IMG/VR virus record: IMGVR_UViG_3300024262_000089
Location: 1-39,985 of that record
DNA from: a virus
Length of the DNA stretch: 39,985 nt
Direction: 5' to 3' (one strand)
The translations under genes and the position numbers were made by a program. A model generated the notes under the pieces. That model saw nothing but the letters and a program-made list of their open reading frames with translations, searched no databases and was not told where the DNA came from. This document shows positions 3,513 through 39,803 of the stretch, one piece after another. Within the stretch, counting starts at the first letter, position 1; each line of letters begins with the position of its first letter.

Positions 3513-5988
3513 TGCAGCTCAAGTCGAAGGCATCATGGTCAAACTGACTGGCGATGGTGCTTCCTTCCAAAATATGTTACGCCAGGCAGAAGTTGCTACC
3601 AAAAACTTCCAACAGAAAGTCATTGGTCTTGGAACTTCAATTACTTCTCTTGGCAAGATAATGACGTTTGGTCTGACTCTGCCTCTTGTTGGATTCGCTG
3701 CTGGAACTGTCAAAGCATTCTCTAGTTTTGATAGTGCGATGACTAAGTCAACTTCTATTATGAAAGTGACTCAAGCTCAAATAGACAAGATGCGTCAAAC
3801 AGCCTTACAAATGTCTTCTTCAGGGGAGTTACAGCAGGGGCCAGCAGCACTAGCAGAATCCTACTTCTTTCTTGCCTCAGCAGGTAAAGATGCTGAACAG
3901 TCAATGGCTCTATTGCCAGTCGTAAGTAAGTTTGCGACGGCTGGAGCTTTTGATATGGCTCTGGCAACAGACCTTTTGACAGATGCTCAATCTGCTTTGG
4001 GACTCTCTTCAAAAGACACTGCTCAAGACATGTTGAACATGACTAGGGTCAGTGACGTTCTCATCAAAGCGAATACTTTAGCCAATGCTTCTGCTCAACA
4101 ATTCGCCGAGTCTTTGACGACTAAATCTGCTGCTGCTTTGAAGGTCTTCAACAAAGATGTTGAGGAAGGTGTTGCCGTTCTTGCAGCGTATGCTGATCAA
4201 GGTATCAAAGGGGCAAACTCTGGCGAAAACCTTAATCGTGTGATGACGCTTCTGGCTGCTACTTCCAGAGACGCAGCAGACATGCACGAAAGGTTTGGTC
4301 TCAAAGTCTTTGACTCTTCGGGCAAGATGCGAAACCTTGCAGACATCATCGAGAATCTTGAAGATATTACTGATGGAATGTCTGATGAAGTTCGTTCTGC
4401 AACTCTGAGTTTCCTTGGGTTTGAAGCCAGAGTTCAAGCCACTATTCTTCCACTGCTTGGAAGTTCTCAGGCAATCAAAGACTACGAAAAAGCTTTGAGA
4501 GACGCTGGTGGTACCACAGAAGACGTTGCTAAAAAGCAAATGGAATCTTTTGCTTCTCAAATGGAACGCCTCAAGAATCGAGTCAATGTTCTTGGAATCG
4601 AAATTGGTGAGAAGCTTATTCCGTACCTCAACAAACTTGTTGATGCAGTCAAAGCCGGTCTTGACAAATGGAATAATCTGGACGATTCAATTAAAGACGT
4701 TGTCATTCAAGTTGGAATCTTCGTAGCAGTCGTTGGTCCAGCACTATTGATTATTGGAAAACTGATTTCTGCTTTGGGGCTTCTGTTAACTCCCTTTGGT
4801 CTAATTGCTACTGCAACAGTTTTAGCGGCTGCCGCTTTTCCAGAATTTCGAGAAGAACTAAAAACAACTGTCGTTGAAGCAATCAGGCTTGGAAAAGAGT
4901 TACTCAACATTGTTGGACTTCAAGAAAAACTTGGTCTTGGTAAAAAGTCTGTAATGAAGTTTGGTACTCAAAAAGCAGCTCATAGACTTGACGGTAAAGA
5001 TACTCTTGTTGGTGATGATTCTGATCCAAGATTGAAAGCTGAAAAAGCTATTCAAGAAGAAATGGAACAGATGCTGAAAGAGCAGGAGTCTGTGGAAAAA
5101 GCTCATAGAGCACAACAGACTCTTAAAGAACTCGAAGCGGAAATGAAGCTAGAAAAGGATCACGCTAAGAAGCTGGAAGCAATGAAAAAGAAAGGTCAAG
5201 CATTAACTGCTCAATTTCTTCCTGAAGAAGAGAAGACAGCTCAGCTCAAACAAGAATACAAAGAGCTTTGGGAGACCGGAAACATTGGAGCAGAAACTTA
5301 TCTGAGTGCTCTTGAAGAACTAGAACGTCAATCAAATAAAGATTATCAAATTCATCAATTCGGTATCAGCGATTCTGCTTTGGCTGGTACTTCTGCTGCC
5401 TTCGAAAAGCTTGCTCAATTCGGCGAGTTGAGAGGCAGCATGATTGATAAGACTGGTCCAAGACTTGAAGAATTAAAAACTCAAGAAGCTCAAAGAATCG
5501 CTTTTGATAAAGTAAAGAATCTTGACTCAAACGCTATTACTAACGCTGAAGGAACTTTGGTAGGTGTCGGAAACCCTTCACTTGATCCAAGAGCTTCCTC
5601 AGAAGCATCCATTCAAGATGAAGCGGAAAAGATGCTTGCAGAAAGAATGGCTGATCTTCAACGAATGAACAACGTAGTTAATAAGCAGCCTGCTGTTGAA
5701 AGAGCTATTGCTCAAGAAGTTCCTAACATTCAAGAGCCTTTATCCAGAAGCATACTTGATGGTCCGGGAGAAGGAACAAGAAATATCCGAGATGTCAAAA
5801 TCAATAAACCCCTTGATTACCTCTTGGAAGGTGACAAAGTTGCTCAAAGATTTAATCCAGACAACGTAGGCCGTGGAGAATCTTTGTCAATCATACTGAC
5901 AAGGCTTGTTGAAATCGCAGAAGAGTCTTTGGAACTTGATAAAAGCAAACCATCACTTGAAGTTGCTGACTCTGGACTATCCAGATAA
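3505..5988 (+). CDS. Tape measure protein
   Basis: 827 residues, the longest gene of the tail module, directly after G/GT. Residues about 40-330 resemble the phage tail tape-measure core, with helical Ala/Ser/Leu-rich segments including AFSSFDSAMTKSTSIM and repeated LATDLL-type helices. Hydrophobic segments lie around residues 50-65 and 405-450, consistent with a membrane-interacting part. Long charged helices (residues about 500-620) suggest coiled coil. The approximate rule of 0.15 nm of tail per residue gives a tail near 120 nm, so a siphovirus with a medium-length tail is expected. Confidence 0.9.
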   Translation: MPSAAQVEGIMVKLTGDGASFQNMLRQAEVATKNFQQKVIGLGTSITSLGKIMTFGLTLPLVGFAAGTVKAFSSFDSAMTKSTSIMKVTQAQIDKMRQTALQMSSSGELQQGPAALAESYFFLASAGKDAEQSMALLPVVSKFATAGAFDMALATDLLTDAQSALGLSSKDTAQDMLNMTRVSDVLIKANTLANASAQQFAESLTTKSAAALKVFNKDVEEGVAVLAAYADQGIKGANSGENLNRVMTLLAATSRDAADMHERFGLKVFDSSGKMRNLADIIENLEDITDGMSDEVRSATLSFLGFEARVQATILPLLGSSQAIKDYEKALRDAGGTTEDVAKKQMESFASQMERLKNRVNVLGIEIGEKLIPYLNKLVDAVKAGLDKWNNLDDSIKDVVIQVGIFVAVVGPALLIIGKLISALGLLLTPFGLIATATVLAAAAFPEFREELKTTVVEAIRLGKELLNIVGLQEKLGLGKKSVMKFGTQKAAHRLDGKDTLVGDDSDPRLKAEKAIQEEMEQMLKEQESVEKAHRAQQTLKELEAEMKLEKDHAKKLEAMKKKGQALTAQFLPEEEKTAQLKQEYKELWETGNIGAETYLSALEELERQSNKDYQIHQFGISDSALAGTSAAFEKLAQFGELRGSMIDKTGPRLEELKTQEAQRIAFDKVKNLDSNAITNAEGTLVGVGNPSLDPRASSEASIQDEAEKMLAERMADLQRMNNVVNKQPAVERAIAQEVPNIQEPLSRSILDGPGEGTRNIRDVKINKPLDYLLEGDKVAQRFNPDNVGRGESLSIILTRLVEIAEESLELDKSKPSLEVADSGLSR

Positions 5989-6004: not shown

Positions 6005-7177
6005 ATGACTGCGACTTTAATAGATGGCCAAAGAGCGTGGGCTTCCAATCGAGATGAGAGGGAAGGTCATCGGTTCTATGAAATCTCTCATCTAGTAAGA
6101 ACCACGACTGCCTTAGATGGTCCTGCAACTGTTATGCAGACGCCTGGGCTTCCCACAATTGGTAGTACATGGAACTTTGACAACGACATAGATGTGTGGG
6201 CGTTCTGCACTCCCTACATGCGAGTCTCAGTTCACAAAGAGAAGGAAGGTGATCCTGCCAAAATCTGGAAGGTCGATCAGAAATTTACTACTGCTCGACC
6301 ATCATTCCAGAGGTGTCAGGATACTACGATTGAGAATCCTTTACTTGAACCTCAAAGGGTTTCAGGCTCTTTTGTCAAGTACACAGAAGAAGCAGTTCTT
6401 GACCGTTACGGAAACGCAATCACTAATTCCGCACATGAATTGTATCGTGGTCCCAACGTCGAGTTTGATGCTTCAAGACCAACGGTCAGTATTGGCCAGA
6501 ACGTATTGAATCTCGGCCTTGCTACTTTTTCTGACATGATCAATAAGGTCAATTCAGTTCCTCAATGGGGTTTACCAGTCCGAACAATCAAACTCTCTAA
6601 TGTCTCTTGGACTCGCAATGTCTATGGCGTCTGTTTCTTCTATTACACCAGAGACTTTGAATTTGATATTCGCTATGACACCTTTGATCGAAGCTTACTT
6701 GACGAAGGTTCAAAAGCTCTCAATGGTGAATTCAATCAAACAGATGGTGGCTGGGATTTAATTGATATCAATGGAGCAGCTCCAGACCCTGGAAATCCAG
6801 AACACTTCATCCGAATCAAAGACCGTCGAGATGAGAATATCAGAACGCCTCTTTGTAAAGGTATTCCCGGTGGAGCTTCTACGGTTCTAATCAACAACGC
6901 AGCAGCGGTTGATAAAGGTGATGGGACAGTTGGCATTCCTATTACTGGGCACACAATATCTGTAGGAGATGCTGTCACCATTTCTGGATCACTGAATTAC
7001 AACGGCAAATTTACGGTTATCAGTACTTCAGCAAATGAAATTGTGATCACTGCGACTTATGTAGCGGAAACTTTTGCTGGAACTGAAAGAGTCACGACAT
7101 GGTCGGTCTGTTACATTCAAGTTGAGAAGTATGAAGAAGCCAATTTCTTCGACTTAGGAATTCCAATCACTCTCTAA
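6005..7177 (+). CDS. Distal tail / baseplate protein candidate
   Basis: 390 residues, starting behind ACTGGAGC. It follows the tape measure, where distal tail and hub proteins are normally found. It looks beta-rich with many aromatic residues (segments such as WTRNVYGVCFFYYTRDFEFDIRY cut into short strands). The C-terminal 110 residues contain a small beta domain, AAVDKGDGTVGIPITGHTI followed by VGDAVTISG, like carbohydrate-binding or Ig-like modules on tail tips. I do not recognise the family; the role is inferred from position. Confidence 0.55.
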   Translation: MTATLIDGQRAWASNRDEREGHRFYEISHLVRTTTALDGPATVMQTPGLPTIGSTWNFDNDIDVWAFCTPYMRVSVHKEKEGDPAKIWKVDQKFTTARPSFQRCQDTTIENPLLEPQRVSGSFVKYTEEAVLDRYGNAITNSAHELYRGPNVEFDASRPTVSIGQNVLNLGLATFSDMINKVNSVPQWGLPVRTIKLSNVSWTRNVYGVCFFYYTRDFEFDIRYDTFDRSLLDEGSKALNGEFNQTDGGWDLIDINGAAPDPGNPEHFIRIKDRRDENIRTPLCKGIPGGASTVLINNAAAVDKGDGTVGIPITGHTISVGDAVTISGSLNYNGKFTVISTSANEIVITATYVAETFAGTERVTTWSVCYIQVEKYEEANFFDLGIPITL

Positions 7178-8273: not shown

Positions 8274-8957
8274 ATGTCACTAAGAGATTTTTCAGATGAA
8301 GACATGGCAGAATTAGCTGCCGTTATCAAAGAAAGGAAGGCATCAAGAGGCAATTCCAAGAGCACTGCCAGAGCGGGAGACTCTTTCAACGAGAATACTG
8401 ACCATCAAGCACCAGAAGTCTTTATGGCTTTGACTCCAACAGGCGGAATTCCTGCAATTGATGGAGTTATTCCCGGTTCTGCGGTCTGCGATTTATATAG
8501 AACAACTGGAGCTTTTGGTTCAGAGACACTTGAAGAGATGGTAGGAATTTCAAAAACCGTCTTCAACATTTCAGCAACGGCAATTGCTGCTGATATTTAC
8601 GTTTTAATCAAGCGAACCAAGCAAGGAAAATGGGTTGCAGAAACTGGTGGGTCAGGTGGAGATGGTTCAGTATCAATCTGGTTCACTGTTGATGCAACTG
8701 GCTGTGATGATATTGGAAGATATTTGATAGTTACTCCCAATAGAATTGCTCCACCATGCACAGTCGTCCCTGGAGAAGATGAATATGGTCTCATCTATGT
8801 TTATGATGACGGTTTTCTTTGTATCCTCAATGAATTCACAAACGCAGAACTCTTAGGACTCAATGGAAAAGCCACTTACGCAAGTGACGTAGACCAAAGC
8901 TATGGATGCCTCAAAGGTTGGACGCTCGATGGTCTCTGTGATACAGGTAATTGTTAA
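8274..8957 (+). CDS. Hypothetical virion-associated protein, 227 aa
   Basis: The frame could begin at TTG 8262 but ATG 8274 is preferred; neither has a strong SD, so coupling to the stop at 8259-8261 may help. The N-terminus (DFSDEDMAELAAVIKERK) is a charged helix, and the rest is Gly/Val/Asp-rich and beta-like. The C-terminal segment carries Cys pairs (residues around GYCLKG and GLCDTGNC), which foreshadow the next, very cysteine-rich gene. A structural role is inferred from context. Confidence 0.5.
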   Translation: MSLRDFSDEDMAELAAVIKERKASRGNSKSTARAGDSFNENTDHQAPEVFMALTPTGGIPAIDGVIPGSAVCDLYRTTGAFGSETLEEMVGISKTVFNISATAIAADIYVLIKRTKQGKWVAETGGSGGDGSVSIWFTVDATGCDDIGRYLIVTPNRIAPPCTVVPGEDEYGLIYVYDDGFLCILNEFTNAELLGLNGKATYASDVDQSYGCLKGWTLDGLCDTGNC

Positions 8958-18813: not shown

Positions 18814-20367
18814 TTAAGATTCAAGACTATCAGTCACGTAGACCAATTCGTTGATTGCTCTAGTGATTGCGACATAGACAAGATTGTATTCCTGTTCCTT
18901 TGCTGATGGAGTTTTCGCCATTGGATGAGGGCAAGGACAATTCTTCATCTGGAGAAAGAAGACTCTTGAAGCTTCGAGACCTTTGGCCTTGTGTATGCTA
19001 CTGAGAACGATTCCCGTGTCTTGTTTATCCTGAAACATCTTTTCGATTTTAGCAATCACGTCTGCAACAGACTTGGAATCTTCAATGAAGTAGCAGAGGC
19101 ATTCGTGGCGATCATTGAGAGCTTCAATCCGATTTTCGTTCGGATTTTTCTTTGAGGTTTCCTTGTCAACTTCTCCGTCAATCCAGAGCGACAATCGCTC
19201 AACTAGTTCTACGATGGTTGAGGCTTTCATTTTCTGGACGGTTGAGACAAGACCTTGACCAATGTCTCTGCCTTTGATCGTTGCTTTGCGTCCGGCTCGA
19301 ATGAAGCCAAAACATTCTTTGACGAGTGGAGCATTGACTCGGCAGAGGATCATGTCACCTGATTGAGCGAGTGATTGGTAATCGTCGATCGTAACCGTCT
19401 TGACCGAACCTTCTGAGTTTGATTCGTGAGCTTCGAAGTCTGGAACGAATTGCCTTGCCTCTTCAACGATTGTTCTACCACAACGGCGAGTCTCAGTGAG
19501 AGGCAATATAACGCATCCTTTCAGAGTTTTTTCCATGCGAGGAATACTGTCGGAATCTGCTCCAGCGAAACCGTAGATGGCCTGGTTGACATCACCTACA
19601 AGAACAATTCGCTTGCCCGCTTTGAGAGCCAAAGCCTGTTGACAACGATTCAAATCTTGGGCTTCATCAACTAGGAGCAAATCGTATTTTGGAATGCTCA
19701 AACCCAGAGCGATTGGCAACCAGACCATATCGTCGTAATTGAGTTTTCGGTCTTCAGAAACTTTCTTGCAACGATCAAGAATCTGGATGACCAAATCGAA
19801 GATTTTGGATTGACTATCGTTAAGGTCGATGTCGTAGCGGTGAGCAAGGTGGAGCAGATCAGAATCTGAGGCTTCCTCAAACGTACCAACCAGGTTCATC
19901 TTGCAGAGGCTGACAAGACGCTCAGTGGCTCGCAATGCAGTCGTGTGACGCTTGCGGATTTCTCGCAAGTCTTTGCCAAGAATTTCCGAGACCATGTTCG
20001 GCACTCGCCACGGGTCCATAGCGACTTTGCCAACAGCGTTTCGGACAGCCGCAAATCCCATACTGTGCATGGTCATCGCTTCGCAATCAGCCGGAACCCG
20101 TTTTTGAAGTTCAACGGCAATGGCTTTGTTGAAGGCGACGAAACAGACTGAATCGTTCTTACCAGACTTGCTGATTTCATCCCAGACGGCTTGTTGCTGA
20201 GCCGAGGGAGTGAGGCTTGAGCCAATTCCCCGTAGGACGTTCAAGCCTTCGACAATTGTCGTTGTTTTGCCTGTGCCCGCCAAAGCCTTGACGATCAAAT
20301 GAGGTCCAGCTTGTCTCTTCGATTTCAGTTTCACGTTTTTCAGAACTGACTTTTTTGTTGTTGTCAT
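18814..20367 (-). CDS. UvrD/Rep-like superfamily 1 DNA helicase
   Basis: 517 residues from ATG 20367; TCTGGAGCAATGAA precedes it, so the longer frame to 20451 is not used. SF1A motifs in order: Walker A AGTGKTTT (30-37), VAFNKAIA, DEAQD (234-238), GDVNQAIYGFAGAD (258-271, motif III), TETRRCG (motif IV), HKAKGLEA and YVAITRAINEL (motif VI). It should be an ATP-dependent 3'-5' translocase for recombination or replication. The N-terminus has the basic motif VLKNVKLK, shared with other proteins here. Last gene of the - strand block. Confidence 0.9.
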   Translation of the reverse strand: MTTTKKSVLKNVKLKSKRQAGPHLIVKALAGTGKTTTIVEGLNVLRGIGSSLTPSAQQQAVWDEISKSGKNDSVCFVAFNKAIAVELQKRVPADCEAMTMHSMGFAAVRNAVGKVAMDPWRVPNMVSEILGKDLREIRKRHTTALRATERLVSLCKMNLVGTFEEASDSDLLHLAHRYDIDLNDSQSKIFDLVIQILDRCKKVSEDRKLNYDDMVWLPIALGLSIPKYDLLLVDEAQDLNRCQQALALKAGKRIVLVGDVNQAIYGFAGADSDSIPRMEKTLKGCVILPLTETRRCGRTIVEEARQFVPDFEAHESNSEGSVKTVTIDDYQSLAQSGDMILCRVNAPLVKECFGFIRAGRKATIKGRDIGQGLVSTVQKMKASTIVELVERLSLWIDGEVDKETSKKNPNENRIEALNDRHECLCYFIEDSKSVADVIAKIEKMFQDKQDTGIVLSSIHKAKGLEASRVFFLQMKNCPCPHPMAKTPSAKEQEYNLVYVAITRAINELVYVTDSLES

Positions 20368-20396
20368 TTCATTGCTCCAGAATTTGAACTGAGCCA

Positions 20397-20633
20397 CTAA
20401 TATGATTTGAAAAATCCACCGGCTTCTGTAACTCTCTTTGCTGTTGTCCATGCAAAGTCAACGGATAGGTGAATTGCATCAAGCCGAAACACAGTTGCAT
20501 ACTGATTTTTAATTCCTTGAATTCGAGCAGGATAACCATCCAAAAATACTTGCCTCTGCGTGAGGTCCCTTCTTTCTTCCTCTGTAACAATACTACCCTT
20601 TTTCAGTTTCACGTTTTTCAGAGCAGATGCCAT
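20397..20633 (-). CDS. Small protein, 78 aa, with LKNVKLK N-terminus
   Basis: The start ATG 20633 follows AAAGGAAAACGAC. The N-terminus ALKNVKLKK is identical over 7 residues to part of the helicase N-terminus, and the DNA is a perfect 22-bp repeat (20601-20622 and 20323-20344). The rest is mixed; TEEERRDLTQRQ is a charged helix. Lies directly upstream of the helicase. Function unknown. Confidence 0.55.
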   Translation of the reverse strand: MASALKNVKLKKGSIVTEEERRDLTQRQVFLDGYPARIQGIKNQYATVFRLDAIHLSVDFAWTTAKRVTEAGGFFKSY

Positions 20634-21184: not shown

Positions 21185-21230
21185 GTTATCGGTTAATAGT
21201 CGCCCCAAGTAAAGCCCAAAGGCGACTATT
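21185..21230 (-). promoter_or_regulatory. Repeated promoter/operator element, copy 1
   Basis: On the - strand: -35-like TTTACT (21208-21213) and -10-like GATAAC (21185-21190) with a 17-nt spacer. A perfect 10-bp inverted repeat, AATAGTCGCC at 21195-21204 and GGCGACTATT at 21221-21230, spans the -35 region with half-sites on either side, like a repressor operator. It stands upstream of the gene starting at 21137. Copies 2 and 3 (23.75 and 26.29 kb) share hexamer spacing and box. Confidence 0.6.
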
Positions 21231-21262
21231 TCAGGGAAGATTTTCAAAGTTTTTTGAAATGC

Positions 21263-21499
21263 TCATTTTCCCTTGGTTTTTGAGCCTTTTCGAGACTGAC
21301 CTCTGGGAAATCCTTTGGTCTGAGGCTTCTCGGCGTACCTCTGAGCTTCAGATTCCGAGATTGAATAGCTGTATTGCCAGTTCCCGTTCCGGTCTTTTCG
21401 CCGTTGCGTTTTTCGGGCCTTGAGAGTTCCCGTACGGATTAGAGTGCGAACTTGCTGAGGGGAACATCCGATGATCGTAGAGGCTTCTGTAGGAGTCAT
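21263..21499 (-). CDS. Excisionase-like HTH DNA-binding protein
   Basis: 78 residues. TPTEASTIIGCSPQQVRTLIRTGTL is a classic helix-turn-helix of the MerR/excisionase type (T-x-x-E-A-A-x-x-x-G-V-S..V-R..I..G.L). The C-terminal part is basic (KGFPRGQSRKGSKTKGK). SD weak. In an early-type region it could be a transcriptional regulator. The leader AGAAAGATTCGAAA is identical to that of the gene at 21700. Confidence 0.65.
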   Translation of the reverse strand: MTPTEASTIIGCSPQQVRTLIRTGTLKARKTQRRKDRNGNWQYSYSISESEAQRYAEKPQTKGFPRGQSRKGSKTKGK

Positions 21500-21511
21500 T
21501 TTCGAATCTTT

Positions 21512-21700
21512 CTAACCGTGAAGCATGAGAAGGTAAATCGTCTCTGAGAACCCACCACAACGAAACACGTAACCACCCTTCACTCGATTAGCAGTGTGGT
21601 GACAATCCAAACGACCTACCGACGTGTATTGCTGAGTTCCGTATAAACGAATTTGAATCACTGTTTTGGATTCTTGTCGAAGTTCTTGCAGAGTTTTCAT
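21512..21700 (-). CDS. Hypothetical protein, 62 aa
   Basis: Starts at ATG 21700 in the leader AAGAAAGATTCGAAA. Contains two Cys/His stretches (LDCHHTANR and FRCGGFSETIY) but no clear zinc site. Upstream of and probably co-transcribed with the HTH gene. Overlaps the preceding 28-aa gene by 4 nt (ATGA). Confidence 0.5.
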   Translation of the reverse strand: MKTLQELRQESKTVIQIRLYGTQQYTSVGRLDCHHTANRVKGGYVFRCGGFSETIYLLMLHG

Positions 21701-21783
21701 TTTCGAATCTTTCTTGAGGCTGCGAGCAGAATGAAGCAGCCAATAACGAGGTAAGGAGTTGCGGCGAGAATCTGTTCAGTCAT
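21697..21783 (-). CDS. 28-aa membrane peptide
   Basis: Begins at ATG 21783, which overlaps the end of the 44-aa gene, and ends at TGA 21697-21699, which overlaps the next ATG. After MTEQIL comes one hydrophobic segment (AATPYLVIGCFILLAA) and a basic tail SRKIRK, giving a likely single-span peptide. Double overlap is the main support; very small, so tentative. Confidence 0.35.
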   Translation of the reverse strand: MTEQILAATPYLVIGCFILLAASRKIRK

Positions 21784-21910
21784 CGGAAGCCTCCATCAGG
21801 ATTAGTTTTTCGAGCATTGCGTTGAGAACTTTAAGGTCTTCAACGTGACGGGTTTCGGTGAGCCGTTTTTGAACGATGGCGATTCGAGTTTCAATTTGCT
21901 GCCTAGTCAT
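21776..21910 (-). CDS. 44-aa helical protein
   Basis: ATG 21910 follows AAGGAAACTTCAAT, a good SD. The peptide (MTRQQIETRIAIVQKRL...VLNAMLEKLILMEASDD) is a single amphipathic coiled-coil-like helix. The start overlaps the end of the gene above. Function unknown. Confidence 0.5.
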   Translation of the reverse strand: MTRQQIETRIAIVQKRLTETRHVEDLKVLNAMLEKLILMEASDD

Positions 21911-22097
21911 ATTGAAGTTTCCTTAATACTCGATAGTTGGAAGAGTTATAAGGCAGGGGCAAATCATAACCGATTAACAACACTTCATTTTTCTCTTCGG
22001 AGTAATAGAAGACGTTTGGAGTTGTCTCTAACGGATTACCCTCACTGTCTAACGTGAAGAACCAATAATACCCGCTGGTAGAAATTTGCCTGGCCAT
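21903..22097 (-). CDS. Hypothetical protein, 64 aa
   Basis: ATG 22097 follows GAGGAGAAACTCAATA. Rich in Tyr, Phe and Asn with a beta-like pattern (YYWFFTLDSEGNP and VFYYSEEK). The stop overlaps the next start region. No recognised family. Confidence 0.5.
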   Translation of the reverse strand: MARQISTSGYYWFFTLDSEGNPLETTPNVFYYSEEKNEVLLIGYDLPLPYNSSNYRVLRKLQYD

Positions 22098-22303
22098 TAT
22101 TGAGTTTCTCCTCTATAAGCTTTCAGAAGGTCAGTCAGTTTGTCACAAATGGTTTCCGCTTGAGGCCTACCAATCTTCAAGAATTCTGCAACAGCATTGA
22201 CTGAGATACCCTCTTCGGTATCTGCATTGAGTTTTCTAGAGACAATTGCATCGACGATTTTATCAATGCAAATATCAATCGCTGTTCCGTGTTGGCGTTT
22301 CAT
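22097..22303 (-). CDS. Small HTH-like protein, 68 aa
   Basis: TAATG overlap with the next gene. The segment ISVNAVAEFLKIGRPQAETICDKLTDLL looks like a helix-turn-helix, with a helical N-terminus. Possible small DNA-binding regulator; weakly supported. Its start lies within the end of the preceding gene. Confidence 0.45.
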   Translation of the reverse strand: MKRQHGTAIDICIDKIVDAIVSRKLNADTEEGISVNAVAEFLKIGRPQAETICDKLTDLLKAYRGETQ

Positions 22304-22508
22304 TAACTTCTACCTTGTTGGTGAATGGAAAAGCGTACTCATGGAAAGAAACAGAAACTACGTTGTTGGTCCTAGACAACGAATCGAAAAGACCTTTAGC
22401 GATTACAGCTAAGTCATCAGGATTGTGAATACACTCACAATCCACATCAGTTTTGATTTTACCATTAGAGGAACGGGTGACGATAACTCGGATGAAAGTT
22501 TGTAGCAT
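22275..22508 (-). CDS. Hypothetical protein, 77 aa
   Basis: The start is ATG 22508 behind TTGAGGATTAAA; the TTG 12 nt upstream is less likely. It is mixed alpha/beta with a Cys pair (DVDCEC) and the C-terminal FPFTNKVEVNET. Overlaps the next gene by 29 nt. Family unknown. Confidence 0.45.
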   Translation of the reverse strand: MLQTFIRVIVTRSSNGKIKTDVDCECIHNPDDLAVIAKGLFDSLSRTNNVVSVSFHEYAFPFTNKVEVNETPTRNSD

Positions 22509-22509
22509 T

Positions 22510-22791
22510 TTAATCCTCAAGGCAAAGGTGAGAGTAGTGATCGAGACTTCCGCAATGGCTGCAACGAGCAGCGTTGGTATCTCGATTGATCTGAATGTGC
22601 TCCAGTCTCAAGGGCAGGTAACCGCAAGGTCCATAAGAGGCGAGAACCTCACAAGCGACTTCCGCCGTCTCATAGAGATTATCGTCGAGAGGTTCAACCA
22701 GCGTATCGCAGCAGACTGGACAGATCGGAATAAAGGTTTCATCGACCACAAAAATCTTAGAGCAGAGACGGCATTTGCAGGTATCAGCCAT
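22510..22791 (-). CDS. Zinc-ribbon protein, 93 aa
   Basis: ATG 22791 sits after TTCTTCAGGGA plus 9 nt, in which AGGGA can act as SD. It carries several zinc-type Cys pairs: CKCRLC at residues 5-10, CPVCC near 24, CSHC and a final H-x-C (near the end). Predicted multi-site zinc protein, perhaps interacting with nucleic acid or RNA polymerase. Confidence 0.6.
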   Translation of the reverse strand: MADTCKCRLCSKIFVVDETFIPICPVCCDTLVEPLDDNLYETAEVACEVLASYGPCGYLPLRLEHIQINRDTNAARCSHCGSLDHYSHLCLED

Positions 22792-22835
22792 GACTAGATT
22801 CCCTGAAGAAAAAGGTAAGAAATCGAAATGGTGGA

Positions 22836-23195
22836 TCAAATTACTTCAATGACATCACAAGCTCTGACTCTTCGACGAACTTCAATGCCATCCCCAGGTC
22901 CAGAAGGTCCAGTTGCTCCAACATACCAGACGATTCCATCTTCGAAGAGAAATCCACCATCCCAGACTCCGTCAGCCCAATCATCAGTTCCATCTGTGCT
23001 ATCAAATTCCGATTGAGTTAAATGAGGTGTGGCACGAGCATAAGTGTCATAAAAATTGTCTCCAAGCTTCTCGACAGCAAGAGACACATCCCAGTCGCAT
23101 GCTTCCAACCATTGACCGAAAGTGAATTTGCCTTCAGCGATCAAAGAGAATCGTTCAGTGCGAGCAGCTGGAAAAGGTTGAATGCGAATCGTCAT
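22836..23195 (-). CDS. Hypothetical protein, 119 aa
   Basis: ATG 23195 behind TCTGGAGCTGAAACG, the same leader as the gene at 23455. Acidic and aromatic stretches (DDWADGVWDGGFLFEDG, then GPSGPGDGIEVRRRVR). No recognised fold. Downstream of a UNCG hairpin duplicated with its neighbour. Confidence 0.5.
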   Translation of the reverse strand: MTIRIQPFPAARTERFSLIAEGKFTFGQWLEACDWDVSLAVEKLGDNFYDTYARATPHLTQSEFDSTDGTDDWADGVWDGGFLFEDGIVWYVGATGPSGPGDGIEVRRRVRACDVIEVI

Positions 23196-23225
23196 CGTTT
23201 CAGCTCCAGAACTTGAGGGAAGGAA

Positions 23226-23239
23226 CCCGCCGGAGCGGG
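23226..23239 (-). terminator. UNCG-loop hairpin between genes, copy A
   Basis: On the - strand CCCGC TCCG GCGGG: 5 GC pairs closed by a UNCG tetraloop, followed by TTCCTTCCC. Sits between the gene at 23261 and the leader of the gene at 23195, so likely a weak terminator or RNA stabiliser. Confidence 0.5.
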
Positions 23240-23260
23240 CCAAGAGAAAAACCAAAAAAG

Positions 23261-23455
23261 CTACCAAACCCGTTCACCACATTTGGTCAGGCAGATCGCA
23301 TTTGCAACTGCCTCAGCTTCTGACTTGAACGGACAATCCATCCCATCAATATCTCCACCTTCCCAGTAGATGAAGAAAACTGATTTCCCAGAACCATTCC
23401 AGCCCTGTTTGATTTCGAATGTCTCTTTTTTGACTTTGAGGGTTGAAAAAATCAT
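23261..23455 (-). CDS. Hypothetical protein, 64 aa
   Basis: ATG 23455 behind TCTGGAGCTGAAACG. Compact alpha/beta, with IKQGWNGSGKSVFFIYWEGGD; the GSGKS is a short coincidence with a Walker A but the protein is too small to be an ATPase. The leader and downstream hairpin are duplicated with the next gene. Confidence 0.5.
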   Translation of the reverse strand: MIFSTLKVKKETFEIKQGWNGSGKSVFFIYWEGGDIDGMDCPFKSEAEAVANAICLTKCGERVW

Positions 23456-23484
23456 CGTTTCAGCTCCAGATTTGAGGGAAGAAA

Positions 23485-23498
23485 CCCGCCGAAGCGGG
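23485..23498 (-). terminator. UNCG-loop hairpin between genes, copy B
   Basis: On the - strand CCCGC TTCG GCGGG, the very stable cUUCGg tetraloop, extendable to 7 bp, followed by TTTCTTCCC. Differs from copy A only in the second loop base, which keeps the UNCG rule. Confidence 0.55.
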
Positions 23499-23517
23499 CT
23501 GAGAGGATTTCGGGATG

Positions 23518-23691
23518 TTACGACATCTCTTGAACGAATCGCAGTGACCAATTTCCGCTGAACAGCGACATCATGAACAGACGAAACTTTGAATCAGCCT
23601 GCTCCTGAGTTTCCGCTTCGATGACTTTCGAATCATCAAAAGACTTGTTCAGAACCTTCGAAAACGTCGTGTAGTGAAAATTAAAACGCAT
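23518..23691 (-). CDS. Small protein, 57 aa
   Basis: ATG 23691 behind CTTGGAGACGACTG; the longer frame to 23742 overlaps the promoter region and is not favoured. Contains KVIEAETQEQADSKFRLFM, a helix that follows a short beta hairpin. First gene after promoter copy 2. Confidence 0.5.
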   Translation of the reverse strand: MRFNFHYTTFSKVLNKSFDDSKVIEAETQEQADSKFRLFMMSLFSGNWSLRFVQEMS

Positions 23692-23746
23692 CAGTCGTCT
23701 CCAAGTTTTGGGTTTCAGTTTTTCGCCGCGTCGTTGCGACAAGGGA

Positions 23747-23819
23747 GTTATCGTCTAAATAGTTGGGGGAGTAAAGGCCAAGGGCGACTATTTTAGAAGA
23801 TTCCCGAAAATAGTTGCCC
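23747..23819 (-). promoter_or_regulatory. Repeated promoter/operator element, copy 2
   Basis: On the - strand: TTTACT (23770-23775), 17-nt spacer, GATAAC (23747-23752), the same hexamers as copy 1. Boxes of the ACTATT type occur at about 23757-23764, 23782-23792 and 23809-23819. Followed by the first gene of the 23.7-21.3 kb segment. Confidence 0.6.
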
Positions 23820-23840
23820 TGCCTCAAAAATCCCTTGGTT

Positions 23841-25205
23841 TCAGACAGATTTCAGATGCTCCAAAGAAACCTCAATAACCGTTCCGGCACCCGCATAGCC
23901 GTTCCCGACTGAGACTTTCGCCCTTTTGGGGTAGAGTTCTTTGATGGTTCCCTTCCATCGTGAGGCTTCGTCGTCAGTCTCTTGGACCCAAACTTCATCG
24001 CCCTCTAAATGCTTGCCTTTTCGCTTCGTAGGCTTCTCTTCGAGGGTTTTATCGTCGTCTTCTGGCTCATCTTCCTCTTCGGGTTTCTCTGGCTTGCCAA
24101 GGTCAATACCGCCAACTGTCGGACACTCAATCAGAGTCTGATAACCGTCTTCGTTGATCTTGTATTCCAACTTGAGTTTTTCTCTGGTCACTGTCTTCCC
24201 TGAAGAAAATAGATTCCAAGCTTTGATCAGCAGAGCCACTGTATCCTCAGTTGTGATTCTTTCGTCGTCATCGACTTCTGCCATCATTTCAAAAAGGTGT
24301 TGGAGTTTATTCGAACGAGCAGCGATCAAAACGAAGAATTCTTGAGCGAGTTCTTCCATGCTCCAATCAAGAACAGATTCACTTCTGACATCATCATCAG
24401 AATAGTATTCATGGAAAATGGATTTGGAAGATGCCATTAAGTAAAGCAGAGCAGCACACTTGCCAGGAACCAGCCATTTCGTGATATTGCCATCAGTGTC
24501 CTCTTCAAAAATAAAGCCTACGCAATCAATCAATTTCAGATGTCGTTCAACGAAGCCGATTGATTCGCTGTGAGTTCGTTTTGCAGCGTTGAAGGGATCA
24601 AAACAAGCTCCAGTTCTTTCCCAGAGATTTCTGATACAGAAGTCTGCGATTCGGGCAACTCGTTTTTTCTGAGTTCCGTTGAGCTTCATGGATTGGAAAT
24701 AAGCTGAACGATACATCACGTCAGTCAGGCTCCGTGGTTTGCAGGTATCCATCGTGTTCACCGTCTCGTCGCCTTCATCGACTCCATACACAATCAACTT
24801 CTCGATGAAAGGTTCTTCAGACCAGAACTGACCCTCGGGCCATTCAGCGTATTCCTCTGCTGCGAGAATCAAACCAATCAGAGTGTGTTGACCATTGAGT
24901 ACCAATCCCGTTTTACCAATAATGATTGGCTCGCCGTTGAACATCCACCGATAACGAAGAATTTCTTGCTTCAGCGAATCGTAATTGCTCTTGGAAATTG
25001 GCCGATTCGTGATGTTGTTAGCGAGGAATACTTTCCTTGATCCAACTTTGAAATTGTGAATTTCCAAAGGCGTCTCATCTGTTGCTTCAGTCCATCCCAG
25101 AAGTTCTTTGGCTTCGTCCGCTGAGATGTAATCTCCTGGAGAAGAATAAGCGATTTCAGCAAACAGAACTTCACGGGCAGCAGCAGTCGTTTTCTTGGTA
25201 GCCAT
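23841..25205 (-). CDS. ParB-like (NGQH-type) nuclease/regulator
   Basis: 454 residues from ATG 25205 (leader CAAGGAAACGACAA). ParB-like N-terminal domain: after ITNRPISKSNYDSL comes PIIIGKTGLVLNGQHTLIGLILA, whose NGQH corresponds to the GxHR/GQHR loop of ParB/Srx-type phosphohydrolase folds. Middle part helical (about residues 110-330). After an acidic linker (EEEDEPEDDDK) a C-terminal 60-residue beta domain (DEVWVQETDDEASRWKGTI) looks like an SH3/Tudor-like module. Could be a partition-like or transcriptional regulator. Function not provable here. Confidence 0.55.
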   Translation of the reverse strand: MATKKTTAAAREVLFAEIAYSSPGDYISADEAKELLGWTEATDETPLEIHNFKVGSRKVFLANNITNRPISKSNYDSLKQEILRYRWMFNGEPIIIGKTGLVLNGQHTLIGLILAAEEYAEWPEGQFWSEEPFIEKLIVYGVDEGDETVNTMDTCKPRSLTDVMYRSAYFQSMKLNGTQKKRVARIADFCIRNLWERTGACFDPFNAAKRTHSESIGFVERHLKLIDCVGFIFEEDTDGNITKWLVPGKCAALLYLMASSKSIFHEYYSDDDVRSESVLDWSMEELAQEFFVLIAARSNKLQHLFEMMAEVDDDERITTEDTVALLIKAWNLFSSGKTVTREKLKLEYKINEDGYQTLIECPTVGGIDLGKPEKPEEEDEPEDDDKTLEEKPTKRKGKHLEGDEVWVQETDDEASRWKGTIKELYPKRAKVSVGNGYAGAGTVIEVSLEHLKSV

Positions 25206-25249
25206 TTGTCGTTTCCTTGAATCAAAGAGTTAAGGGAGAAAAGCAGAGA

Positions 25250-25474
25250 CTAGAGTTCTGGACCAGTCCAAGTCAGAACGTGATTCTTGCGACTGACAAG
25301 ACCAGTGTTGACAAGAGTCTCAATAAACCGGTCGAACTGATCGGCAGTCAGGTCTGGAAAAGATTCCATCATCAAAGCGTAGAGATGACCAGCAGGAACT
25401 GATTTGAGTTCTCGAATTGCTTCACAGACGGCGACAGAGATTAAGAAACGAGTGTTTTGAGATTTGGTCAACAT
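25250..25474 (-). CDS. Small winged-helix-like protein, 74 aa
   Basis: ATG 25474 behind TTAGGAG. Segment FPDLTADQFDRFIETLVNTGLVSRKNHVLTW suggests a wing-helix end (helix, helix, strand turn). Possible transcriptional regulator. Confidence 0.5.
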   Translation of the reverse strand: MLTKSQNTRFLISVAVCEAIRELKSVPAGHLYALMMESFPDLTADQFDRFIETLVNTGLVSRKNHVLTWTGPEL

Positions 25475-25483
25475 GAGAAACTC

Positions 25484-25801
25484 CTAAGTAAGCCAAGAGG
25501 GAATAGTGACACTGCCGTCTCGATGCAGCAGATACATTTCAGGGTCTAACCTCGACTCCAGATCAGCAGGATAGAGGAAAAAAGCTGAGACCGCAGTAGC
25601 GTAGTCGCTGAAAATTTCCTCTTCAGAAGGTGGTCCATCAACAGCCTCTTTCTGAAGTGTGTAGATCAGTTTTCGGTCAAGGAAAAACGCATCATCAGTT
25701 CTGCATTTTCCAGAGAGAACTTCTGACCGAACCCATTTGTCAAAGCTCTCGGCGGGTTGATTGTCGAGAGTACAATCGAATGTTCTTCGAAATTCTGCCA
25801 T
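25484..25801 (-). CDS. Hypothetical protein, 105 aa
   Basis: ATG 25801 behind CCTGAGGAGAAGTCTG. Mostly helical with a C-terminal hairpin (YLLHRDGSVTIPSWL). No family recognised. In the segment fed by promoter copy 3. Confidence 0.5.
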   Translation of the reverse strand: MAEFRRTFDCTLDNQPAESFDKWVRSEVLSGKCRTDDAFFLDRKLIYTLQKEAVDGPPSEEEIFSDYATAVSAFFLYPADLESRLDPEMYLLHRDGSVTIPSWLT

Positions 25802-25812
25802 CAGACTTCTCC

Positions 25813-26025
25813 TCAGGAAATTCGGTCAGTGCGGGTCCAGTAACAGTAGTTGCAGATGTGTGCTCCGTCAGAATCTTCGAAACACTTGCCATTCGCCGTC
25901 TCTGGTCGTTTGCAGCACTCACAAGGCAACTGATCGTCGTTGTGCTGATCAATCAATCCCAATGGGAAAATCTCAGCGTTCTGTTTCTGTCGTCTCTTCG
26001 ATTCTGCTTTGGTGATCGTCTTCAT
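25813..26025 (-). CDS. Zinc-finger-like protein, 70 aa
   Basis: ATG 26025 with leader CTGGAGAAACGAA. Has C-x-C-C and C-x2-C (CECC near residue 35, CNYC near 58) in a His/Asp-rich segment, plus a basic N-terminus (KAESKRRQKQN). May bind nucleic acid through zinc. Confidence 0.55.
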   Translation of the reverse strand: MKTITKAESKRRQKQNAEIFPLGLIDQHNDDQLPCECCKRPETANGKCFEDSDGAHICNYCYWTRTDRIS

Positions 26026-26072
26026 TTCGTTTCTCCAGAGGGTTTCAAAAATGGGGTAAGAAAACTTGGTGA

Positions 26073-26222
26073 CTACCAGATTGAAACAATCCAGTCAGAA
26101 CCAAGTTCCTTACGAAGTTCATCCCCTGAATTCACCGTGAAGAATCGAACCTGACCAGTCGTCTTGTGGGATGCTCGGAAGTTTGCGAAAGCTTTATTTC
26201 CGATTGTTTGTTCAATGATCAT
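26073..26222 (-). CDS. Small protein, 49 aa (first gene after promoter copy 3)
   Basis: ATG 26222 behind CCAAGGAAACGAAAA, stop TAG 26073-26075. Peptide MIIEQTIGNKAFANFR... ends DWIVSIW. Leader and position right after promoter copy 3 make it a likely gene. Function unknown. Confidence 0.5.
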   Translation of the reverse strand: MIIEQTIGNKAFANFRASHKTTGQVRFFTVNSGDELRKELGSDWIVSIW

Positions 26223-26712
26223 TTTTCGTTTCCTTGGTTTGGGTTTCGTTTCAGCCAGTCGTTGTTTCGACTGAGGGAAGTATTATAATAGTCGGCGTTC
26301 CCATAAAGCCTGGGATAGACTTTTTTCCAATTTTGCGAGAAATAGTTGCCTTTCCCTACTTTTCCCTGTGAAAAAGGCCCTTTTCAATCTTGGAAATCTT
26401 CCTTCAAAACGTCTTTTGAGGCTCAATCGAGAAAAATGAGAGACAAAAAGGTTTTGAAAGGGGCGAGCGGCGATCGTCGAAGCAAGTTTGAAAACGTCTT
26501 TGAAAAAACTTGCTTGAAAAGATGAGACCGGCTGCGAAAAAAGTGAGAGAAATTTCTGAGACGCGAGGCAAGCCCCAAACTAGCCCTATGTATTAGTTCT
26601 TTTATTGTCCCTTTACTTTCCCCTACTACGTTACTACGTTACGTGGGTGGGTTTTGGGAGCGAAGAGGTTAATAGTTAATATATAGTTATCTATATAGAG
26701 ATAAGAGATAGT
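26223..26712. other. Divergent intergenic region, 490 bp
   Basis: Contains promoter copy 3 at its left, a 10-bp inverted repeat AAGCAAGTTT (26480-26489) and AAACTTGCTT (26506-26515), the near-repeats AAAACGTCTTTTGA and AAAACGTCTTTGAA, tandem CTACGTTA units (about 26621-26644), and an AT-rich stretch (about 26671-26700) before the next gene. It could hold a rightward promoter or an origin; no gene is seen. Confidence 0.6.
26256..26307 (-). promoter_or_regulatory. Repeated promoter/operator element, copy 3, with 5' hairpin
   Basis: On the - strand: TTTATG (26302-26307), 17-nt spacer, AATACT (26279-26284), the same spacing as copies 1 and 2; a perfect TATAAT also lies at 26282-26287. The box CGACTATT sits in the spacer, and a related box occurs farther up. 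Just downstream, CAGTCG/CGACTG (26256-26273) would fold as a 6-bp hairpin in the mRNA leader. Confidence 0.6.
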
Positions 26713-27100: not shown

Positions 27101-27129
27101 GCTGCCGAGAAATCGAGCAGCGTTTTTTA
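27101..27129 (+). terminator. Rho-independent terminator with GAAA loop
   Basis: GCTGC CGA GAAA TCG A GCAGC followed by GTTTTTTATT: a 5-bp outer and 3-bp inner stem with a GNRA tetraloop and one bulged base. It lies 37 nt after the HNH gene and just before the next promoter. Confidence 0.75.
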
Positions 27130-27138
27130 TTTCTAAGC

Positions 27139-27149
27139 TACGTTATAAT
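27139..27149 (+). promoter_or_regulatory. Promoter candidate with extended -10 TACGTTATAAT
   Basis: TACGTTATAAT, preceded by a T-rich stretch (TTTTTTATTTCTAAGC) that is similar to the region upstream of 29970. No clear -35. Placed between a terminator and the gene at 27189. Confidence 0.5.
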
Positions 27150-27188
27150 ACGCGGCACCAAATCACCTCTGACTTCGAAAGGTACATA

Positions 27189-29948: not shown

Positions 29949-29969
29949 GTCGCCTTTTATTTTCTGAGA

Positions 29970-29980
29970 TACGTTATAAT
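29970..29980 (+). promoter_or_regulatory. Promoter candidate with extended -10 TACGTTATAAT
   Basis: Second copy of the 11-mer, with a similar upstream T-rich stretch (CCTTTTATTTTCTGAGA versus TTTTTATTTCTAAGC at the first). It sits 20 nt before ATG 30000. Confidence 0.5.
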
Positions 29981-29999
29981 TCGCCTCAAAGGAAACGAG

Positions 30000-32164: not shown

Positions 32165-32340
32165 GGCAAGGTGGCGAAATGGTAGACGCTGATGACATAG
32201 AAGACTTATGAAGGTGTGCTATGTCCCCGAGAACAGTGAATAAACGCGAGTGACAAGAGGGTCTGGAAGGTCACTGGTTTTGATCCAGCAGCACTGTCGC
32301 GAATTAGTAAGTCATGCAGGTTCGAATCCTGCCCTTGCCA
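32165..32340 (+). tRNA. tRNA-like gene with a large internal insert
   Basis: Perfect 7-bp acceptor stem: GGCAAGG (32165-32171) with CCTTGCC (32333-32339), discriminator A. Next a D-arm of the leucine type (GCG AAATGGTAGA CGC) and a perfect T-arm GCAGG TTCGAAT CCTGC (32316-32332). Between D- and T-arm are about 120 nt, where 35-50 would be usual. The insert can form GACATAG/CTATGTC, CGCGA/TCGCG and GTGAC/GTCAC hairpins, and no ordinary anticodon arm is evident. Intron, hybrid or tRNA-like RNA are open. Confidence 0.65.
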
Positions 32341-32375
32341 TTTTACAAATCCCTGAAACTGACTGGAGAAATCTG

Positions 32376-34583: not shown

Positions 34584-34656
34584 GGTCCTGTAGTTCAATT
34601 GGGAGAACAGCGGGGTGCATCCCGGACGAATGCTGGTTCGAATCCAGCCAGGACCA
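34584..34656 (+). tRNA. tRNA with atypical anticodon arm (tentatively GCA)
   Basis: Acceptor GGTCCTG/CAGGACC is perfect, D-arm GTTC AATTGGGA GAAC and T-arm GCTGG TTCGAAT CCAGC are canonical, discriminator A, length 73. The anticodon region GCGGG GTGCATC CCGGA pairs poorly (2 mismatches) with a 7-nt loop, reading GCA (Cys) at the standard place; a better CGGG/CCCG stem leaves a 6-nt loop. Identity uncertain. Confidence 0.8.
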
Positions 34657-35996: not shown

Positions 35997-36374
35997 ATGA
36001 AAGACAATGTACGAGCCGCAATAGAGCGACTAAGACAGGACGATTTGACATTTGGAAATGACCGCAGAAACAGTTGCCGGATGAATTATGATGGACGAGC
36101 TGTTTGGGAAGATGTGCAAACTTTGCTTTCAGAACATCTGGCAGACGATGACGAGCCCGTGACTGTCGAGTGGCTGGAATCGGTCGGGTTCAAGGGCATC
36201 TCCGTGATGGCCGAGGTGATTCTGTCGGCTTACGTGCGGCTTCAAAGGCCGTCCTACGATGTCGTCGTTCGCGGAAATGGCGCGGCGTTTTCCCCGCCTC
36301 TAGCGACAGCCGAAACCCGTGGCGACGTCCGCCGATTGTGTGCAGCACTGGGGATCGAACTAAAGGAAATCTGA
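35997..36374 (+). CDS. Protein with unusual GC-rich composition, 125 aa
   Basis: Bases from about 36130 to 36350 are visibly richer in G and C than both neighbours, with codons GTC, GCC, GGC and CGC used far more. The protein (VTVEWLESVGFKGISVMAEVILSAYVRL) is helical and of unknown family. Stops directly before the polymerase. Likely recently gained from a GC-richer genome. Confidence 0.55.
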   Translation: MKDNVRAAIERLRQDDLTFGNDRRNSCRMNYDGRAVWEDVQTLLSEHLADDDEPVTVEWLESVGFKGISVMAEVILSAYVRLQRPSYDVVVRGNGAAFSPPLATAETRGDVRRLCAALGIELKEI

Positions 36375-39227: not shown

Positions 39228-39803
39228 ATGATAGTTAGTCTGAGAGGGACACATGGTAGTGGAAAATCAACTGCTGTAAGAAGGTTTCTTTCCAGATATC
39301 CAGGATACGAATCAATTCCTGGAAAGAAACATCCAGAAGGATATAGAGTTACTATATCAGAACTTTCAAAACCTCTTTATATTGTTGGTCATTATGAGAC
39401 ACCTTGTGGTGGGTGTGACAGCATTCAACCCTATAGTTTGATTTGGCCAAGAGTTGTTTCTTATGCTGAAAAAGGACATGTACTTTTTGAAGGTGCTCTT
39501 GTTAGTAGTAGCTATGGTAACATTGGAAGAGCCAGTGAAGTTTATGGTGATGAAGTGGTATTTGCTTTCATGGACACACCCTTAGAGAAATGTATAGAAA
39601 GAATCAAAAAACGAAGAGAACAATCAGGTAAGTCTTACACCAAACCATTCAACCCAGCTAACACAATTTCAAAAGCTAAAAATGTAACAAGGAGCATTGA
39701 AGTCATAACAAAAATTGGTCGTAGAGTTGTAATTGTTAATCACAAAAAAGCAACAAACATAATTCTTAGATTGTTTAAGGAGTTTGACAATGTTGAAAAC
39801 TAA
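39228..39803 (+). CDS. P-loop kinase, candidate 5-hydroxymethyl-dU DNA kinase
   Basis: 191 residues from ATG 39228 (SD AGGAGGTG). Walker A LRGTHGSGKSTAVRR (5-19). The middle has PLYIVGHYETPCGGCDSIQPY and GHVLFEGALVSSSYG, seen in phage kinases of the thymidine hypermodification pathway (the GNYE..CGGCD and FEGLL.S.YG signatures). It would phosphorylate 5-hmdU in DNA. Adjacent to and after the hypermodification protein. Confidence 0.75.
   Translation: MIVSLRGTHGSGKSTAVRRFLSRYPGYESIPGKKHPEGYRVTISELSKPLYIVGHYETPCGGCDSIQPYSLIWPRVVSYAEKGHVLFEGALVSSSYGNIGRASEVYGDEVVFAFMDTPLEKCIERIKKRREQSGKSYTKPFNPANTISKAKNVTRSIEVITKIGRRVVIVNHKKATNIILRLFKEFDNVEN

Follow-up and report, generated by a model that had tools for sequence, protein, structure and literature searches.

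Three promoter-like elements on the minus strand

The DNA analyzed here (the window) is a virus record of 39,985 bases, IMGVR_UViG_3300024262_000089, also labeled G000. It carries three similar promoter-like elements on its minus strand, named copies 1 to 3. Its proteins include a tape-measure protein, glycosyltransferases, a family-A DNA polymerase, a Sak4-like protein, an exonuclease, a RuvC-like resolvase, a UvrD-like helicase, and a terminase-like protein. This gene content identifies the window as a stretch of a tailed phage, an uncultured bacterial virus. A contig of 58,560 bases, G001 (IMGVR_UViG_3300009149_000037), represents the same phage, with 4 differences in 21,362 bases. Window positions equal G001 positions plus 4302.

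Copy 1 sits between a gene for a 78-amino-acid helix-turn-helix (HTH) protein (21263–21499, minus strand) and the genes up to the UvrD-like helicase (18814–20451, minus strand), which is the main gene downstream of copy 1 and closes its segment. Copy 2 sits between a ParB-like gene (23841–25205, minus strand) and a run of small genes closing with the HTH gene. Copy 3 precedes the genes running up to the ParB-like gene. These positions indicated that each copy heads one minus-strand segment.

All three copies can be read as putative minus-strand core promoters with 17-nt spacers. Copy 1 (21185–21213) consists of a −35 hexamer TTTACT (21213–21208) and a −10 hexamer GATAAC (21190–21185), and copy 2 (23747–23775) has the same hexamers at 23775–23770 and 23752–23747. 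Copy 3 (26279–26307) has TTTATG (26307–26302) and AATACT (26284–26279); a perfect TATAAT (26287–26282) overlaps the latter, closer to TTTATG than usual (15 nt). The three copies are probably promoters for host RNA polymerase, perhaps of the sigma-70 type.

A box, AATAGTYGSC (reverse, GSCRACTATT), is common to the copies. In copy 1, GGCGACTATT was found in the spacer (21195–21204, minus strand) and again upstream of the −35 hexamer (21221–21230, plus strand; AATAGTCGCC on the minus strand). The two form a perfect 10-bp inverted repeat. Copy 2 has three boxes: CCCAACTATT, with one mismatch, in the spacer (23758–23767, minus strand), GGCGACTATT upstream of −35 (23783–23792, plus strand), and GGCAACTATT farther upstream (23809–23818, minus strand). 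Copy 3 has GCCGACTATT in the spacer (26287–26296, minus strand) and GGCAACTATT upstream (26341–26350, minus strand). An inverted repeat lies inside the putative core promoter in copies 1 and 2, and the second half-site of copy 3, upstream of −35, is only degenerate. ACTATT starts 13, 12, and 15 nt past the first −35 base in copies 1, 2, and 3, respectively, so the offset varies. The first-pass annotation had described the three-copy arrangement at 21.2, 23.75, and 26.29 kb with 17-nt spacers, its place before the first gene of each minus-strand segment, and the 10-bp repeat in copy 1; direct reading of the sequence and the gene positions bore these out.

The window contains six exact GSCRACTATT sites, and all six fall at the three elements (300 dinucleotide shuffles: mean 0.16, maximum 2). 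With one mismatch allowed there were 12 matches, against a shuffle mean of 5.1, and none of 100 shuffles reached 12; the additional matches include the copy 2 spacer box. Scanning G001 with AATAGTYSSC returned the same six boxes and no further ones. The search for more copies that the first-pass annotation had proposed therefore placed every exact box of the window and of the 58.5-kb contig at the three elements. In a weight-matrix scan of the window, the next best sites after the elements scored 13.5 bits (at 20543) and 13.2 bits (at 36067).

The intergenic gaps holding the copies were aligned, as had also been proposed. Copies 1 and 2 scored 50 (shuffle maximum 26) and copies 2 and 3 scored 36 (shuffle maximum 30); neither score was reached in 300 shuffles. 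Copies 1 and 3 scored 21, a value reached by 58 of 300 shuffles, so copy 3 is tied in via copy 2. The match between copies 2 and 3 extends into the leader and the ribosome-site region. In a self-comparison of apparently noncoding DNA (the window plus the G001 tail), the pairs 1–2 and 2–3 were among six matches. The three-copy set is real, and copy 3 is its most diverged member.

Conservation of the box in related phages

Viral contigs were aligned with three proteins, giving 14 loci for the helicase (the window's phage and G002, a relative found earlier, account for two of these), 6 for the HTH protein, and 34 for the ParB-like protein. Genome contigs gave zero matches to the helicase. The relatives are labeled G002–G012 and L098. 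The order of the helicase, ParB-like, RuvC, and exonuclease genes is broadly conserved at roughly 22–57% identity. A relative of the DNA polymerase (43%) lies on a contig labeled as an archaeal metagenome-assembled genome (JANQNF010000005.1), possibly a misbinned phage.

The clearest counterpart was found in G010 (IMGVR_UViG_3300002145_000154), whose helicase is about 46% identical to that of the window's phage. It has three elements, one before the ParB-like block, one after it, and one about 17–20 kb away on the same strand, and all of them are oriented like the helicase gene. They contain inverted AATAGY-N8/9-ACTATT pairs, of which 3 were observed in the three gaps against a shuffle mean of 0.002; the count of AATAGY...ACTATT pairs in the window gaps was 2, against a mean of 0.001. 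In two of the three elements, TTTACT comes with a second hexamer, either TATACT at a 17-nt spacing or TATATT at 16 nt. The three gaps are alike in every pairing, none of the scores being reached in 300 shuffles. The third element and copy 1 of the window have 34–36 nt in common, including AATAGTC, a similarity reached by none of 100 shuffles and the best among 354 comparisons. Conservation in relatives, on which the first-pass annotation had made its claim depend, was thus found, as G010 retains three copies carrying this inverted pair.

The box also occurs in G002, past the ParB-like gene and flanked by TTGTGC and TATAAC, and in G004, where two promoter regions are nearly identical (score 77, shuffle maximum 26) and one box lies in the divergent region. 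The −10 hexamers of relatives (TATACT, TATATT, TATAAC) are better than those of the window. Gaps of nine relatives (G002–G005, G007, G009–G011, and L098) were tested for their best box score against shuffled gaps. The p values, which are optimistic because the gaps were hand-picked after inspection, were 0.002 for G002, 0.022 for G003, 0.024 for G010, and 0.044 for G004, with a combined p of 1.2 × 10−4 for G002, G003, and G010. In the gaps of G005 (0.068), G011 (0.26), G007 (0.33), G009 (0.51), and L098 (0.87), no box was found at p < 0.05. G006, G008, G012, and most loci of the ParB-like alignment were scanned by pattern only. Among 19 loci of that alignment, AATAGTYSSC occurred once in each of six, apparently isolated. 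An exact pattern with an 8-nt gap (the true gap is 7) matched two loci, L019 and L020; they hold no homologues of window genes, and the matches were taken as chance. Going by the sequences, the box behaves as an operator would: it is confined to putative promoters beyond chance and conserved at equivalent places in relatives.

Some relatives carry other repeated elements. Self-comparison of noncoding DNA revealed four copies of a roughly 40–50-nt element with TTGACC in G006 and two copies of another element in G009. The same comparison gave zero repeats in G002, G003, and G011, and only other kinds of repeats in G005, G007, G008, and G012. Gap-to-gap tests were without signal in G003, G005, G007, G011, and G002 (37 of 300 shuffles for the last). 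As G003, G005, G007, and G002 had no significant gap match, a repeated element is common among the relatives but not evident in all of them. A pattern search in G011 returned six matches to AGTATACTCACTAT at up to two mismatches, and the reversed-pattern control returned none. The G011 element lies in the spacer at one promoter-like place and after TATAAT at another. The six copies of this near-palindromic AGTAGTATACTCACT-type element, at 6747, 9209, 10710, 17466, 20155, and 26774, may be this phage's own operator.

Further repeats and RNA features were observed in these phages. A second repeated promoter-like element, CTACGTTATAATACGC / GATACGTTATAATTCGC, occurs on the plus strand of the window at 27124–27153 and 29955–29984, before rightward genes and without the box. 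TACGTTA occurs twice at 26627–26641. A 55-nt direct repeat (23192–23246 and 23452–23505, 89% identical) has a CCCGCC..GCGGG hairpin and a shared leader before two small genes. ARAGORN placed a tRNA-Gln at 32251–32341, overlapping the start of the Sak4-like open reading frame; it is doubtful, as Rfam at its gathering threshold gives only the tRNA at 34584–34656. Type II hammerhead ribozymes, which are already known in phage contexts (PMC3088659), scored over the Rfam cut-off in 3 of 13 records (G001, G004 twice, and G009) and at E ≤ 0.05 in 5 of 13. The hammerhead of the window's own phage lies at G001 39456–39528, minus strand (4456–4528 of locus L011), about 3.8 kb past the window end, and that of G009 directly precedes the helicase gene. 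A leader after the post-ParB promoter, CTGANGAG...CGAAAC with a preceding hairpin, resembles a hammerhead core in L022, which is G003 (8632–8710), and in L028 (about 6600–6660). The G003 leader scored 22.4 bits, under the cut-off, and L031 and L032 have similar leader letters.

A candidate reader and the proposed mechanism

The protein encoded at 21263–21499, the last gene of segment 2, is the best candidate reader of the box. Its gene ends 32 nt short of the upstream box of copy 1. It matched Pfam HTH_17 (PF12728) with 27.8 bits against a cut-off of 27. Its structure model folds as a winged HTH, in the order helix-helix-beta hairpin-helix (predicted local distance difference test score 81.7); BldC (Z 6.0–6.2) and Pukovnik Xis (Z 5.8) were among its best matches, at Z values where chance resemblance is possible. 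In NCBIfam an excisionase-type model matched below its cut-off, and no Aca model matched at E ≤ 0.1. The first-pass annotation had named three HTH candidates. Only this one stood up, with HTH_17 over the cut-off and homologues in relatives. Scans of Pfam, PHROGs, NCBIfam, and PADLOC gave zero matches for the protein at 22097–22303 and only a sub-threshold Pfam match for that at 25250–25474.

A profile search detected HTH homologues in 6 of 13 records, that is, in 5 of 12 phages because G000 and G001 are one phage. The HTH proteins of the window, G002, G003, and G010 share an SxQQVR helix; the helix of G007 is different, and L098 has a distant homologue with another helix. The box is present in all four SxQQVR phages (in the window by definition) and absent in the two phages with other helices (G007, p 0.33; L098, p 0.87). 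Given one exception, G004, and the hand-picked gaps, this link between the type of recognition helix and the presence of the box is suggestive.

We slightly favor a mechanism in which three host-polymerase promoters with shared boxes are shut down together by a phage protein, most likely the 78-amino-acid HTH protein. Host RNA polymerase of the sigma-70 type, using the 17-nt spacers, would start each of the three co-directional segments, which probably hold early or replication genes. The two or three boxes at each promoter, over and just upstream of the core, would serve as the operator. As the HTH protein of segment 2 accumulates, it would bind the boxes, block RNA polymerase, and turn down all three segments, including its own, which copy 2 drives. 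Within the putative core promoter, the position of the box shifts from copy to copy and from phage to phage, which a blocking operator would tolerate. The coregulated set with one repressor or activator that the first-pass annotation had envisaged fits the exclusive box sites, their placement at segment heads, and the three-copy set in a distant relative. We infer from these patterns that the promoters are active, which protein reads the boxes, and that it acts as a repressor, not an activator.

Several observations weigh against this mechanism. The hexamers of copies 1, 2, and 3 match the sigma-70 consensus at 8, 8, and 6 of 12 positions, and a consensus scan requiring 9 of 12 detected none of the three copies. 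The gaps were chosen by hand once the sequences had been inspected (eight relatives, then L098), and the p values were weaker when random segments of that locus served as the control: 0.020 for G002, 0.060 for G003, and 0.020 for G010 (also 0.050 for G004, 0.054 for G005, 0.24 for G011, 0.17 for G007, and 0.42 for G009). G004 has its one box (p 0.044) though no HTH homologue was found there. The half-sites are 23–24 nt apart in the window and 8–9 nt apart in G010, a difference unfit for a single rigid dimer. HTH_17 proteins also include excisionases, although neither of the two recombinase families searched for turned up.

The G004 box would be accounted for if the same promoters and boxes were read by the ParB-like protein or another phage protein, which we consider rather unlikely. 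This 454-amino-acid protein resembles ParB in its N-terminal part and SH3 folds in its C-terminal part. Its gene is flanked by copies 2 and 3, and a homologue occupies the same block in the relatives examined. The N-terminal part resembles ParB (best Foldseek match 6sdk, probability 0.30; VIA-align Z 5.5–5.6), and distant mycobacteriophage matches are annotated as HTH DNA-binding or hypothetical proteins. However, the AlphaFold model gave weak structural matches and no HTH was identified in it, and the protein is present in many phages without an AATAGTY box. As the family is conserved where the box is absent, its operators would need to have diverged widely. The boxes might instead bind an activator, for example one of middle genes, a reading to which we give a similarly small chance. 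Poor −10 and −35 hexamers are typical of promoters needing help, and the upstream boxes of copies 2 and 3 are at positions where activators bind. MerR-type proteins act from within the spacer, which would suit the spacer boxes, but MerR activation uses spacers of 19–20 nt and those here are 17 nt. The position of the box relative to the hexamers varies among copies and phages, which activators tolerate poorly. The varying offsets and orientations thus suit a blocking repressor better than an activator.

It is very improbable that the inverted repeats are mainly RNA hairpins, terminators or attenuators, that end the upstream segments. Copies 1 and 2 lie directly past stop codons and fold as RNA better than shuffles (z −3.9 and −2.6), and in several relatives a hairpin resembling a terminator separates the ParB-like gene from the promoter that follows. 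This reading was set aside because copy 3 (z +0.6) and the three G010 copies (z −0.5 to −0.8) were not clearly better folded than shuffles. Copies 1 and 2 also pair different boxes, a T tract is absent, and a terminator scan flagged none of the three elements on the minus strand. What the copies have in common is the DNA box and not an RNA shape. That the boxes are immunity operators or stoperators belonging to a temperate phage is improbable too. Repeated asymmetric sites at promoters do occur in mycobacteriophage systems (PMC9283540). Stoperators, however, are many scattered sites away from promoters, and the exact boxes of the window and G001 occur only at the three promoters, in both orientations. 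Tyrosine integrase (PF00589) and resolvase-type recombinase (PF00239) were found in none of the 13 records searched, which may be fragments. For this reason timing control during lytic growth seems likelier than immunity, with the reservation that the records may be incomplete.

Under the favored repression of three promoters by the HTH protein, there would be a concrete regulator-operator pair for a phage lineage known here only from metagenomic contigs. The relatives would add a natural series of diverging operators with candidate readers (SxQQVR versus other helices), suited to following how a protein and its site evolve in step. With no integrase found, operators shared within one phage would mean timing of early genes, not immunity. 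A wider scheme seems doubtful, if possible: each phage of an entire lineage, apparently non-integrating, would keep a private set of two to six near-identical promoter/operators with its own small HTH or ParB-like reader, operator and reader co-diverging, duplication or gene conversion renewing the whole set at once, and early genes being shut off without lysogeny.

Comparison with known regulatory systems

In literature listings on shared operators in lytic phages, we recognized nothing as the element of the window. SPP1, a lytic siphovirus, has five early units lying side by side; every unit is driven by a promoter of its own, and one of the early genes codes for a small putative repressor (PMC6316719). 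The window resembles it in having contiguous, probably early units with their own putative promoters and a small putative repressor. The SPP1 promoters were located experimentally and those here are predicted, and the part of the SPP1 account drawn on describes no operator shared among promoters (PMC6316719). The immunity repressors of mycobacteriophages block early promoters and recognize an asymmetric site repeated in the genome (PMC9283540). Such a site is also repeated within the window, where it is found only at three promoters, in both orientations, in a phage with no integrase found.

The predicted fold of the candidate reader is that of the winged HTH proteins of the BldC and excisionase (HTH_17) kind, and its size is near that of BldC, which has 68 amino acids. 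The sites of BldC are direct repeats of varying length (PMC5859096), whereas the paired half-sites in the window core promoters are inverted.

The closest documented logic, within the sources consulted, is the autorepression of acr-aca operons by Aca proteins (PMC9410906). These HTH proteins exert repression at inverted repeats lying within early core promoters. As in the Aca systems described there, a small phage-type HTH protein is combined with an inverted repeat that falls within a putative sigma-70-like core promoter, at times with a second repeat alongside, and the regulator gene lies within the operon that the regulator would control. Unlike them, the box here is common to three promoters of a single phage, and the HTH protein of the window had no match to an Aca model. 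The set in the window appears to resemble a known logic, one akin to Aca-type autorepression.

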